Shown piece by piece: positions 9,784 to 17,128 of a stretch of DNA of 64,000 nt (positions are counted from its first letter, which is position 1; every line of letters starts with the position of its first letter). The position numbers and the translations under genes are program-made. This stretch comes from Petrimonas mucosa (GTDB lineage Bacteria > Bacteroidota > Bacteroidia > Bacteroidales > Dysgonomonadaceae). The notes beneath the pieces are model-generated. The model was not told where the DNA came from, searched no databases, and saw nothing but the letters and a program-made list of their open reading frames with translations. Where the stretch lies: NCBI RefSeq assembly GCF_900095795.1, contig NZ_LT608328.1:3651001-3715000 (forward strand). The letters are read 5' to 3'.

Positions 9784-11178
9784 TTAACCGTAATTGGCCG
9801 TTAAACTGTAAAGTCCCGTTTTCTTGAACCATTCAAGGTTCATTCCCTCGTGTGCAGCGTGGGTCATTGACAGTCTAAACCATCCCTTAGAACTTCCCGC
9901 CGTTGTCCAGCTCCGGTTCCAAGGAACGCCCAACTTGGTCAAGAACCTGGCTATGCCCAACGCCCGTTTGCATTGTTTTAAACGATAGCATCTTAATCTA
10001 CGACGAAGCCAAGCTTCAAGGTTGCGAAGACGACTTTTCATCTTTGCGTGCTTGAAGTAGTTTAGCCAGCCTCGTAGAACGGGATTTAGCTCGCTTATTA
10101 ACTGATCGAAGCTAATGCCCCTGTTGCGTTTGGTAAGCGATTTTAGTTTCGCCTTGAAGCGTTGTTCGCTCTTTCGGCTTAATCCTAAACTCCCGCCTTT
10201 TAAGATAGTATGGCCGAGATAATTGAGTTGATGAGGACGGACGATATGGCTCTTTTCCTTGTTTATTCTTAATCGCATCCGATTTTCGATAAACTTGGAG
10301 AGGCTTTGCATCGATCGCTCCGCGGCTGGTTCGCTTCCGACCATTATGATAATATCATCGGCGTAGCGTACAAAGCAGTGTCCTCTCCGCTCTAACTCCT
10401 TGTCCAGTTCGTCTAAGACGATATTCGACAACAGGGGTGATAGTGGGCTGCCTTGCGGTGTCCCTTTCACCCGTTGATTGGCCATCCCCCCGATTAGCAT
10501 TCCTGCTCGAAGAAATTTACCTATCAACTTAAGTACGCGCTTGTCACCAACGCGAGTACTTAACTGCCAAAGCAATCGGTCGTGATTCACCTCGTCAAAG
10601 AATTTTGCCAAGTCTATGTCGATAACCCAATCCTTTCCTTCGGCCACGTATTCGCCCGCTTTACGTAATGCTTGATGAGCGTTACGCCGTGGACGAAAAC
10701 CGTAGCTGTATTCGGAGAATATAGGGTCATAACGTTTCGACAGTACTTGGCTTATCGCTTGTTGTACCAAGCGATCTTTGACCGTGGGAATACCCAGTTG
10801 GCGTTTCCCGCCATCAGGCTTCGGGATTAATACCTCTTTAACTGCCGTAACTTGGTATGTGCCTGTCATTAACTGGCGTTGAAGTTCTCGGTGGTGGCTG
10901 TTAAGCCAATCTCTAAGTTCGTCAACGGTCATCCCGTCAATGCCCGCACTTCCCCTGTTACTGATTACTTGCCGCAATGCGGCATCAAGATTCTTTAAGT
11001 CCGTTATATCACTCATTAAATCTTGGGTTAAGGCTCGTTCCTCTTTGCAACCTGACAACCACTCGTCCCGTACCAAACCGCTTCCTGAACTGAATACGTC
11101 AGTCCCCTTCACCTTTTGGCCACGCTCCCATTCGTCAAAAAGACTCATCTGTAAGTTCCCGTGTTTACCTGGGTTCAT
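9784..11178 (-). CDS. ltrA: group II intron reverse transcriptase/maturase
   Basis: Intron-encoded protein of 464 residues that helps the intron RNA fold and splice, and copies it into DNA. RT blocks in order are GSAGIDGMTVDELRDW, IPKPDGGKRQLGIPTVKDR, SYGFRPRRNAHQA, DIDLAKFFDEVNHD, GTPQGSPLSPLLSNIVLDEL, the catalytic CFVRYADDIII, and KSHIVRPHQLNYLGHT. The group II maturase-specific (X) domain then follows, with LNPVLRGWLNYFK. The chain ends LYSLTANYG with no HNH endonuclease, as in IIC elements. Start taken at ATG 11178. The flanking domain V/VI shows this is not a retron, DGR or defence reverse transcriptase. Confidence 0.93.
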   Translation of the reverse strand: MNPGKHGNLQMSLFDEWERGQKVKGTDVFSSGSGLVRDEWLSGCKEERALTQDLMSDITDLKNLDAALRQVISNRGSAGIDGMTVDELRDWLNSHHRELQRQLMTGTYQVTAVKEVLIPKPDGGKRQLGIPTVKDRLVQQAISQVLSKRYDPIFSEYSYGFRPRRNAHQALRKAGEYVAEGKDWVIDIDLAKFFDEVNHDRLLWQLSTRVGDKRVLKLIGKFLRAGMLIGGMANQRVKGTPQGSPLSPLLSNIVLDELDKELERRGHCFVRYADDIIIMVGSEPAAERSMQSLSKFIENRMRLRINKEKSHIVRPHQLNYLGHTILKGGSLGLSRKSEQRFKAKLKSLTKRNRGISFDQLISELNPVLRGWLNYFKHAKMKSRLRNLEAWLRRRLRCYRLKQCKRALGIARFLTKLGVPWNRSWTTAGSSKGWFRLSMTHAAHEGMNLEWFKKTGLYSLTANYG

Positions 11179-11579
11179 AATGGTCGTTACAATTTACAAA
11201 ATAACTGCTCCTTAATTGAAAATTCAGCCCTTCCCTGTATTGACGTTACTCAATATTTATAGCGGTACTATGGCCTCTGCTGACTTCTCTGCCCCTTTCG
11301 GGTTAGAGACCTCCTACGTTAAGTGCATTATCTTCCTGTTAATACTACTGCATTTACTACCCCGGGTTACGGACGGCTTTAGGGCGTCTGTGTTTATTGC
11401 CACATTACCCCCCGGGTAAGCCTTAGTATGCAGTTTCTGTTCGTTAGTACCAACTTTTGTTTTAGGCTTCTTTCAGGTTATACCTCGCGGTAACACCCTT
11501 GCCATCAACTAACGGTTCTCGCCAAAATAAGCCCGCTCGGGACTTTAACCCTATAGATAATGAACATGCATAGCAAACA

Positions 11580-15117: not shown

Positions 15118-15558
15118 ATGTCGGTAAATAAAGTTATTTTAGTAGGGAATGTGGGGAAAGATCCGGAGATCAAGTATTTTGACAACGACAACGTAAAAGC
15201 GAATTTCCCACTGGCAACCAGTGAGCGGGGGTACACGGCGGCAAACGGGACACAGGTTCCGGAACGCACGGAATGGCACAACATTGTTTGTTGGAGAGGG
15301 TTGGCACAGATAGTTGAAAAATTTGTGAGAAAAGGCACTCAACTCTATATCGAGGGAAAGATCCGTTCGCGTTCATATGACGACCAGAACGGTGTGAAAA
15401 GATATATCACTGAGATCTATGCCGATAACGTGGAGATGCTGAACCGCAAGGCAGGATCAGCCGAAGGCTCAGGTCTTCAGAGTGATAAACACGAAACTCA
15501 CTTCACGGGACCGGTCGATTTAGGCGACAACTCCGAAACTGATGATTTGCCGTTTTAA
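15118..15558 (+). CDS. ssb: single-stranded DNA-binding protein
   Basis: Coats single-stranded DNA during replication and repair and recruits partner proteins. The 146-residue protein has the N-terminal OB fold (MSVNKVILVGNVGKDPEIKY, ERTEWHNIVCWRGLAQIVEK, GTQLYIEGKIRSRSY) and a flexible tail ending in DDLPF, the conserved protein-interaction tip. The last codons overlap the -33 element of a perfect promoter for the region downstream. Confidence 0.96.
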   Translation: MSVNKVILVGNVGKDPEIKYFDNDNVKANFPLATSERGYTAANGTQVPERTEWHNIVCWRGLAQIVEKFVRKGTQLYIEGKIRSRSYDDQNGVKRYITEIYADNVEMLNRKAGSAEGSGLQSDKHETHFTGPVDLGDNSETDDLPF

Positions 15559-15576
15559 AAAAAGATTGTAATTTTG
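15546..15576 (+). promoter_or_regulatory. consensus Bacteroidota promoter inside the end of ssb
   Basis: TTTG (15546-15549), exactly 19 bases, then TAATTTTG (15569-15576): a full match to TTTG-N19-TAnnTTTG. Transcription should start near 15581, just where a large foldable region begins. Confidence 0.8.
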
Positions 15577-15580
15577 CGGG

Positions 15581-15790
15581 GAGTGATTTGTGCTTACCTG
15601 ACGGGGGGCCGATGACGGGAGAGAAAAGTTTTCGGCTTCCCGTTCTCCTGAGCACAAACCATTCTCTTTTGTATTATTAACTCAACTTTCGCGAGCATCG
15701 GTCAAAAGGTCTTGTAGGTTAACAACAAGATCATAGGCACGCAAGCGACAAATGGGTCGCAGATGCCTGCGAAACTAAAAATCACTAAAT
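15581..15790 (+). ncRNA. candidate structured RNA between ssb and gldE (own promoter)
   Basis: The region from the predicted start to just before gldE can fold into a closed multi-branch structure. AGTGATTT (15582-15589) pairs perfectly with AAATCACT (15779-15786). Directly inside, GTGCT (15590-15594) pairs with AGCAC (15651-15655), enclosing a hairpin with ACGGGA (15615-15620) and TCCCGT (15638-15643). A second domain is closed by TTTCGC (15687-15692) plus GCATC (15695-15699) with GATGC (15762-15766) plus GCGAAA (15769-15774). It holds the hairpins TCTTGT/ACAAGA (15710-15730) and GCGAC/GTCGC (15745-15760). It could be a free-standing RNA or the leader of gldE. No known RNA family was recognised. 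Confidence 0.5.
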
Positions 15791-15799
15791 TTAGCCCCC

Positions 15800-17128
15800 T
15801 TGGATCCTGATCCGTTTTCATTGCTACATCCAGAAGCACAGGCAGCCGTACTTTCTGCTGCCGACTACCTGCTGATTGTGCTCACCCCGATTCTTATATT
15901 CATCGATGCGATCATTTCAGGCGCAGAGGTTGCATTCTTCTCCCTCAATCAGGAAGAGACCGAAGAGATCCATACCGATACCGATCCGAAATCAAAGCGG
16001 GTTTCCCGCCTGCTCAAGAATCCGGAGAGGTTGATGAGCGCCTTGGTCATTGCATACAACCTGCTGAACATAACGCTTATCGTATTGCTCTTCCACCTGC
16101 TGGGGCTCATCCCCCACTTTGCCGGTAATCCCGGCAGCACCATACTTTCGCTGCTGATAATCGCACTCTTTCTCTTCTTGCTGGTTGAGATCGTACCCAA
16201 GATGTACGCGTCACAACGTTCACTGCTCTTTGCCCGTCGCCACTCCCGGGTTATCGGGATCATAAACCGCCTTATGGAGCCCTTCACGTCGTGGATGGTA
16301 AATCGAAGCATCGGTTTCGGCAAAAGTGCCATCGGGAAAAGGTATGAAATCTCGATGGACGACCTCTCCAAGGCGCTTGAAATCACATCGGGAGAGATCC
16401 AGCAGGAACAGGAGAAGGAGATGCTGGAGGGTATCATCCGATTCAAGGACAAGACAGTGGAGGATATCCTGGTCTCAAGGAGCGACATGGTGGCCCTCGA
16501 CATTACCACTTCATTCAGGGAGGTGATCAGGTTTATCGTGGAGGCGGGTTTTTCCCGGATCCCTGTTTTCGAGGAGAGTCCGGACAACATCAAAGGTATC
16601 CTCTATGTCAAGGACCTGCTGCCACACCTTATCAAGACAGACAATTTCCGCTGGCAGTCCCTGATCCGCCCCGCCTACTTTGTACCGGGGACAAAACGGA
16701 TCGACGACCTGCTCGAGGAGTTCAGGGCCAACAAGAACCACATGGCCATTGTGGTGGACGAATATGGTGGCACATCTGGACTGGTGACGATGGAAGATAT
16801 CCTGGAGGAGATTGTTGGAGATATCAGCGATGAGTACGACGAAGAGGCAAAACCTTTCTACACGCTCGCCCCGGACGGCTCATACATCTTTGAAGGGAAG
16901 ACGTCGCTCGACGATTTCATCGAGGTGACCGGCGTTCCGGAGAGGGATTTTGAAAAGTTGCAGGAGGAGGCTGATACCATAGCTGGATTGGTGCTGGAGC
17001 TAAAGGGAGACTTCCCCAAACGGAAGGAGCTGGTGGAGTACAAGCGGTATGGATTCCAGGCGGAAGAGATGAGCAAGCGGAGGATCGTGAAGGTCCGCTA
17101 TATCCCTCCAAAAGAGGAGAACAACTGA
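15800..17128 (+). CDS. gldE: GldE-type CBS-domain membrane protein (HlyC/CorC family)
   Basis: 442 residues: an N-terminal CNNM/DUF21 membrane domain (YLLIVLTPILIFIDAIISGAEVAFFSLN and further segments to about residue 150), two CBS domains (around MVALDITTSFREVIRF and MAIVVDEYGGTSGLVTMEDILEEIVGDI), and a C-terminal CorC_HlyC domain. Related proteins act in divalent-cation export; in Flavobacterium gldE is linked to gliding through gldD, but non-gliding Bacteroidales keep it. The start is taken as TTG 15800, giving a DPDPFSLL N-terminus, since no ATG lies before the first membrane segment. The next gene starts 4 bases after its stop. Confidence 0.85.
   Translation: MDPDPFSLLHPEAQAAVLSAADYLLIVLTPILIFIDAIISGAEVAFFSLNQEETEEIHTDTDPKSKRVSRLLKNPERLMSALVIAYNLLNITLIVLLFHLLGLIPHFAGNPGSTILSLLIIALFLFLLVEIVPKMYASQRSLLFARRHSRVIGIINRLMEPFTSWMVNRSIGFGKSAIGKRYEISMDDLSKALEITSGEIQQEQEKEMLEGIIRFKDKTVEDILVSRSDMVALDITTSFREVIRFIVEAGFSRIPVFEESPDNIKGILYVKDLLPHLIKTDNFRWQSLIRPAYFVPGTKRIDDLLEEFRANKNHMAIVVDEYGGTSGLVTMEDILEEIVGDISDEYDEEAKPFYTLAPDGSYIFEGKTSLDDFIEVTGVPERDFEKLQEEADTIAGLVLELKGDFPKRKELVEYKRYGFQAEEMSKRRIVKVRYIPPKEENN

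Follow-up and report, generated by a model that had tools for sequence, protein, structure and literature searches.

The ssb–gldE locus

The window, a stretch of 64,000 nucleotides from the single-contig, 3.72-Mb genome of Petrimonas mucosa, contains the genes ssb and gldE in tandem on the forward strand; their nearest loci are of the Petrimonas type (e.g., Petrimonas sp. IBARAKI). A preliminary description of this DNA had noted a non-coding gap between the two genes and read it as one structured RNA of about 205 bases with its own promoter. The gap is real: ssb ends at 15558, the TTG start codon of gldE at 15800 is kept in the relatives, aligning as TTGGAYCC, and the 241 nt between them compare with mostly ~70–111 nt across the family. 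In the alignment, the typical family gap consists of TAnnTTTG, the inverted repeat GAGAATGTTTT...AAAACATTCTC, a U-rich stretch, TTTCACTAAA and the gldE TTG. The features of the locus are as follows.

15118–15558, + strand: ssb, single-stranded DNA-binding protein of 146 aa with C-terminus DDLPF (TIGR00621, 1.1e-39; Pfam SSB)
15546–15576, + strand: predicted Bacteroidetes-type promoter TTTG-N19-TAATTTTG, an exact match
15578–15667, + strand: hairpin with an outer stem homologous to GAGAATGTTTT/AAAACATTCTC and an apex enlarged here (covariance model, covariation)
15664–15672, + strand: U-rich stretch CTCTTTTGT on the 3' side of the hairpin, terminator-like but short (from sequence)
15673–15680, + strand: left target-site duplication ATTATTAA, degenerate (compared with ATCACTAA and the empty site TTCACTAA)
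15681–15780, + strand: MITE of 100 nt, degenerate and internally deleted, with IS4/ISPepr1-type ends CTCAACTTTCGC...GCGAAACTAAAA; absent in relatives, boundaries inferred and uncertain by ~1 nt
15687–15699, + strand: left terminal inverted repeat, homologous to MITE/IS ends and pairing with 15762–15774
15762–15774, + strand: right terminal inverted repeat (pairing; homology to MITE/IS ends)
15781–15788, + strand: right target-site duplication ATCACTAA; this copy runs on into the gldE leader (relatives: TTCACTAAATTT)
15800–17128, + strand: gldE, 442 aa (TIGR03520, 1.3e-137; alignment with relatives)

A conserved promoter at the end of ssb

The sigma-ABfr promoters of Bacteroidetes carry the boxes TTTG and TAnnTTTG (PMC7366714, PMC6847099), and the window shares both exactly, near −33 and −7 and with a spacer of 19 nt; the one described here is predicted from sequence and, unlike those promoters, has its −33 box within the coding sequence of ssb. 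This box sits in the last codons of the gene, those for Asp-Leu of the SSB tail DDLPF, and the −7 box lies in the gap. The exact pattern TTTG-N19-TAnnTTTG occurs three times in the window, with 0.10 occurrences expected from shuffles. Its place at the end of ssb, as first described, stands, and it is conserved across the family: both boxes are found in 30 of 38 hairpin-bearing homologues, with a spacing of 19–20 nt among the relatives, and the ssb–gldE gaps of Petrimonas, Proteiniphilum, Seramator and other Dysgonomonadaceae keep promoter and hairpin together. For the tail Leu, 34 of the 38 hairpin-bearing loci use the codon TTG, in contrast to 19 of the 42 remaining ssb loci and to 87 of the 227 other Leu codons of the same genes; the sequences are related and p-values for these counts are indicative only, while the placement of some long-loop loci in the "other" group makes the contrast conservative. 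From its sequence, we infer that this is the sigma-ABfr promoter of gldE.

A covarying hairpin next to the promoter

Directly 3' of the −7 box lies a covarying stem-loop that is found solely between ssb and gldE. The conserved unit is one hairpin, usually of ~50 nt, whose stem GAGAATGTTTT/AAAACATTCTC is paired in 91.7% of the cells in 38 homologues and shows changes on both sides in 10 of its 17 pairs; double-change cells number 45, against 14 in shuffles and 10–16 in slid controls. An alignment of ssb–gldE gaps from relatives, which the preliminary description had suggested as a check, reveals compensatory changes in the stem of the first hairpin, for example from GAGAATG/CATTCTC to GAGGATG/CATCCTC (L033, L045) or to GGGAATG/CATTCCC (L016). 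The arm core TGTT/AACA is close to invariant and the loop is free; several central stem pairs hardly vary, and the arms therefore seem constrained beyond pairing. The inner helix GTGCT/AGCAC proposed for the window also holds, with 15590–15594 and 15651–15655 pairing with a probability of ~1.0.

With the window, L005 and L009 left out of its construction, a covariance model still recovered all three, the match in the window spanning 15555–15698 (E 4.7e-5), and an enlarged hairpin apex is common to the same three loci. The exact palindrome pattern is present in 23 of 101 family genomes, one copy in each of the 23 that match. A search with the model across the order found the hairpin in one genome only, of the same family, with strict filters that also missed the copy in the window, so this search was insensitive. 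Across the homologues, the loop varies in sequence and in length, from a few to more than 100 nt. In L009 (3457–3639) and L012 (3445–3710), where the ssb–gldE gap measures 200 and 266 nt, the loop has grown and the outer arms are kept. As a second dispersed element, the apex of the window's hairpin yielded no significant copies elsewhere, and we kept it as a loop expansion, seen also in L005 and L009; a small ORF that the window and L005 share within the apex (reading MTGEKSF.. and MTDERSF.., respectively) was rejected, its substitutions being, by eye, mostly non-synonymous. The 8 nt after the stem contain two to seven T among the relatives, with seven in Petrimonas and two to five in L019, L023, L031, L034, L043, L046, L047 and L052, several of them Proteiniphilum-type.

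The claim that no RNA family matches was borne out by an Rfam covariance check of the locus in the window, with nothing at gathering threshold; the same was true of nine homologous loci, and at E 5, the hits mir-H1 and DUF805b were chance matches only. The literature yielded nothing on an ssb–gldE RNA.

A MITE in the gldE leader

The 3' half of the supposed RNA has a different origin. In the relatives, the site is empty (TTTTGTTTCACTAAATTT) and the sequence runs uninterrupted as CTCTTTTGT-TTCACTAA-ATTT, where the window has CTCTTTTGT-ATTATTAA-[100 nt]-ATCACTAA-ATTT; among the gaps examined, the element is found in the window genome only. The insertion was recognised when a DNA search in relatives matched just half of the region, in one congener. 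Because the ends match MITE/IS terminal repeats, the helix of 11 pairs thought to close a second RNA domain (15687–15699 with 15762–15774) is the pair of terminal inverted repeats of the MITE; its strands pair with a probability of ~0.95 at most positions. Aligned to a 216-bp copy, the MITE scores 63.8, against 3.9 ± 6.2 and a maximum of 31.6 for 1,000 shuffles; its inner motif GCAAGCGRCAAATGGGTCGCA occurs six times in its own genome and the reversed control not at all, and its end motif 10 times, against two for the control. The target duplication is identical at six of eight positions, against eight of eight in L180, L142 and L187, and with the element itself degenerate, the insertion is old. 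It would make the gldE leader 108 nt longer, and no selected role is evident for this folded addition. The literature yielded nothing on Petrimonas MITEs.

The 216-bp relative elsewhere in the genome has the same kind of ends and a perfect 8-bp duplication ATTTTTTA, and congener copies of 216 bp likewise have a perfect 8-bp duplication ATAAGAAT. The same chromosome holds intact insertion sequences (IS) of ~1588 bp. Their ends TTCAAGTTTCGCAAGT are identical over 16 bp, they are flanked by duplications of 8 bp (TCACTTAA, TTAAATAA), and they encode a transposase of 482 aa of the IS4 family (NF049925, 2.4e-116). The ISPepr1 subgroup is characterised by ends YT-AA-YTT---A, a length of 1500–1600 bp and duplications of 7–8 bp at AT-rich targets (PMC2266710), and judged by sequence, the IS elements agree with this subgroup on each of these points. 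The MITE in the window shares with the ISPepr1 MITEs of the IS4 family (PMC2266710) the end signature, an autonomous IS with ends of this kind in the genome and, in degenerate form (six of eight positions), an 8-bp AT-rich duplication, and differs from the 216-bp version in being 100 nt long, degenerate and internally deleted.

The inner part of the 216-bp MITE (~54–166; L180, G000:C1:405640-405855) recurs in many genomes of the family. In those of the Proteiniphilum type, it is an intergenic repeat of high copy number, with at least seven scored copies in each of G093, G094 and G102, so a REP-like palindrome may have been picked up by the MITE. Repeats arranged in tandem with a period of 166 bp (L225, G000:C1:271000-271800) share the MITE core motif GCAAGCGGCTGATGGGTCGC, and in L197 (1652–2602), a gene for an IS1595-family transposase adjoins an IS4-family copy of the same genome.

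Interpretation of the locus

The preliminary description envisaged one RNA of ~205 bases with paired ends, two domains and a GGGG/CCCC pairing that gates gldE. The region does fold strongly (−83.1 kcal/mol versus −62.9 for shuffles, z −4.3) and a promoter is located at its 5' end, but we regard a single RNA of this kind as highly improbable, as the second domain is missing from all homologous ssb–gldE gaps examined and is accounted for by the MITE. The helix expected to join the two ends (15582–15589/15779–15786) consists of complementary letters but has a pair probability of only 0.03–0.09, its 5' strand preferring the local conserved partner 15656–15664; moreover, it pairs a strand of the conserved stem with the MITE end and target duplication and cannot form in the relatives. 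The GGGG/CCCC pairing is possible in the window (up to 0.33), but the gate is not conserved: L004 and L005 have C-runs before the TTG but no GGGG, with GCAGAGAATG instead. The ~200 nt of apparent length recall 6S RNA and 6S-Flavo of Rfam, but neither matches even at E 5, and half of that length in the window is transposon remnant. What survives of the original interpretation is a promoter with a structured RNA close to its start; judged from the sequences compared, the rest is a conserved promoter-hairpin beside a transposon remnant of one genome. This removes a false candidate for a complex RNA, and MITE terminal repeats beside a genuine conserved hairpin can thus mimic a multi-domain RNA.

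As to function, the sequence suggests that the hairpin would be both a 5' stabiliser or attenuator for gldE and, for ssb transcripts, a 3' cap or weak terminator. The explanation that we favour, and consider probable, is a composite one in which the sigma-ABfr promoter would fire gldE transcription from a start at ~15578–15583, giving an mRNA with a 5'-terminal stem-loop that would protect it and/or partly terminate it; in read-through from ssb, the same stem-loop would cap the 3' end or terminate weakly and so separate ssb from gldE expression. The MITE has inserted downstream of the stem-loop, into the gldE leader. Stem-loops at the 5' end of mRNAs, of the ompA type, are stabilisers. The hairpin resembles these and intrinsic terminators in having its stem at the predicted +1 and, in part of the family, a U-rich stretch; on the other hand, its arm sequence is nearly fixed, its U-tract is not kept throughout and its role is predicted. 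A point against the composite explanation is that the promoter would impede its own transcript if the stem at +1 were a strong terminator.

That the hairpin is simply the intrinsic terminator of ssb and the promoter-like boxes incidental would fit its position immediately behind the ssb stop codon and, in Petrimonas, its TTTTGTTT, as well as the unrelated hairpins that occupy this position in some loci of the Bacteroidaceae type (L078, L080, L083). We think this unlikely, since both boxes are conserved, synonymous sites included, and several lineages are without a U-tract; the weakness of the U-tract in part of the family counts against a pure terminator and makes a leader structure likelier. 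The poor U-tract also speaks against a short, independent, trans-acting sRNA of ~55–95 nt, with its own promoter, one hairpin and its own U-tract terminator. Promoter and hairpin are conserved together, the arm core is nearly invariant beside a free loop, and the canonical intergenic sRNAs of B. thetaiotaomicron are marked by a start site and an intrinsic terminator (PMC7366714), but a loop varying in both sequence and length leaves no conserved single-stranded seed, and we rate such an sRNA slightly below the terminator. An undescribed, family-specific regulatory stem-loop at the gldE +1, with fixed arms and a free loop that tolerates large expansions, would couple ssb to gldE and could be protein-bound, cleaved by RNase or released as an sRNA; we hold this to be about as doubtful as the terminator. 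There remains a unit of promoter and covarying hairpin that Rfam lacks and that could be tested, as leader or as sRNA, in the culturable Petrimonas, Proteiniphilum or Seramator.

A group II intron elsewhere in the window

A group II intron lies on the − strand at 9784–11494, with matches to the Rfam D1–D4 domains at 11324–11494 and 11227–11322. These domains are followed by an ORF of 464 aa with a YADD motif (9784–11178), which adjoins a ribonuclease G-like gene.
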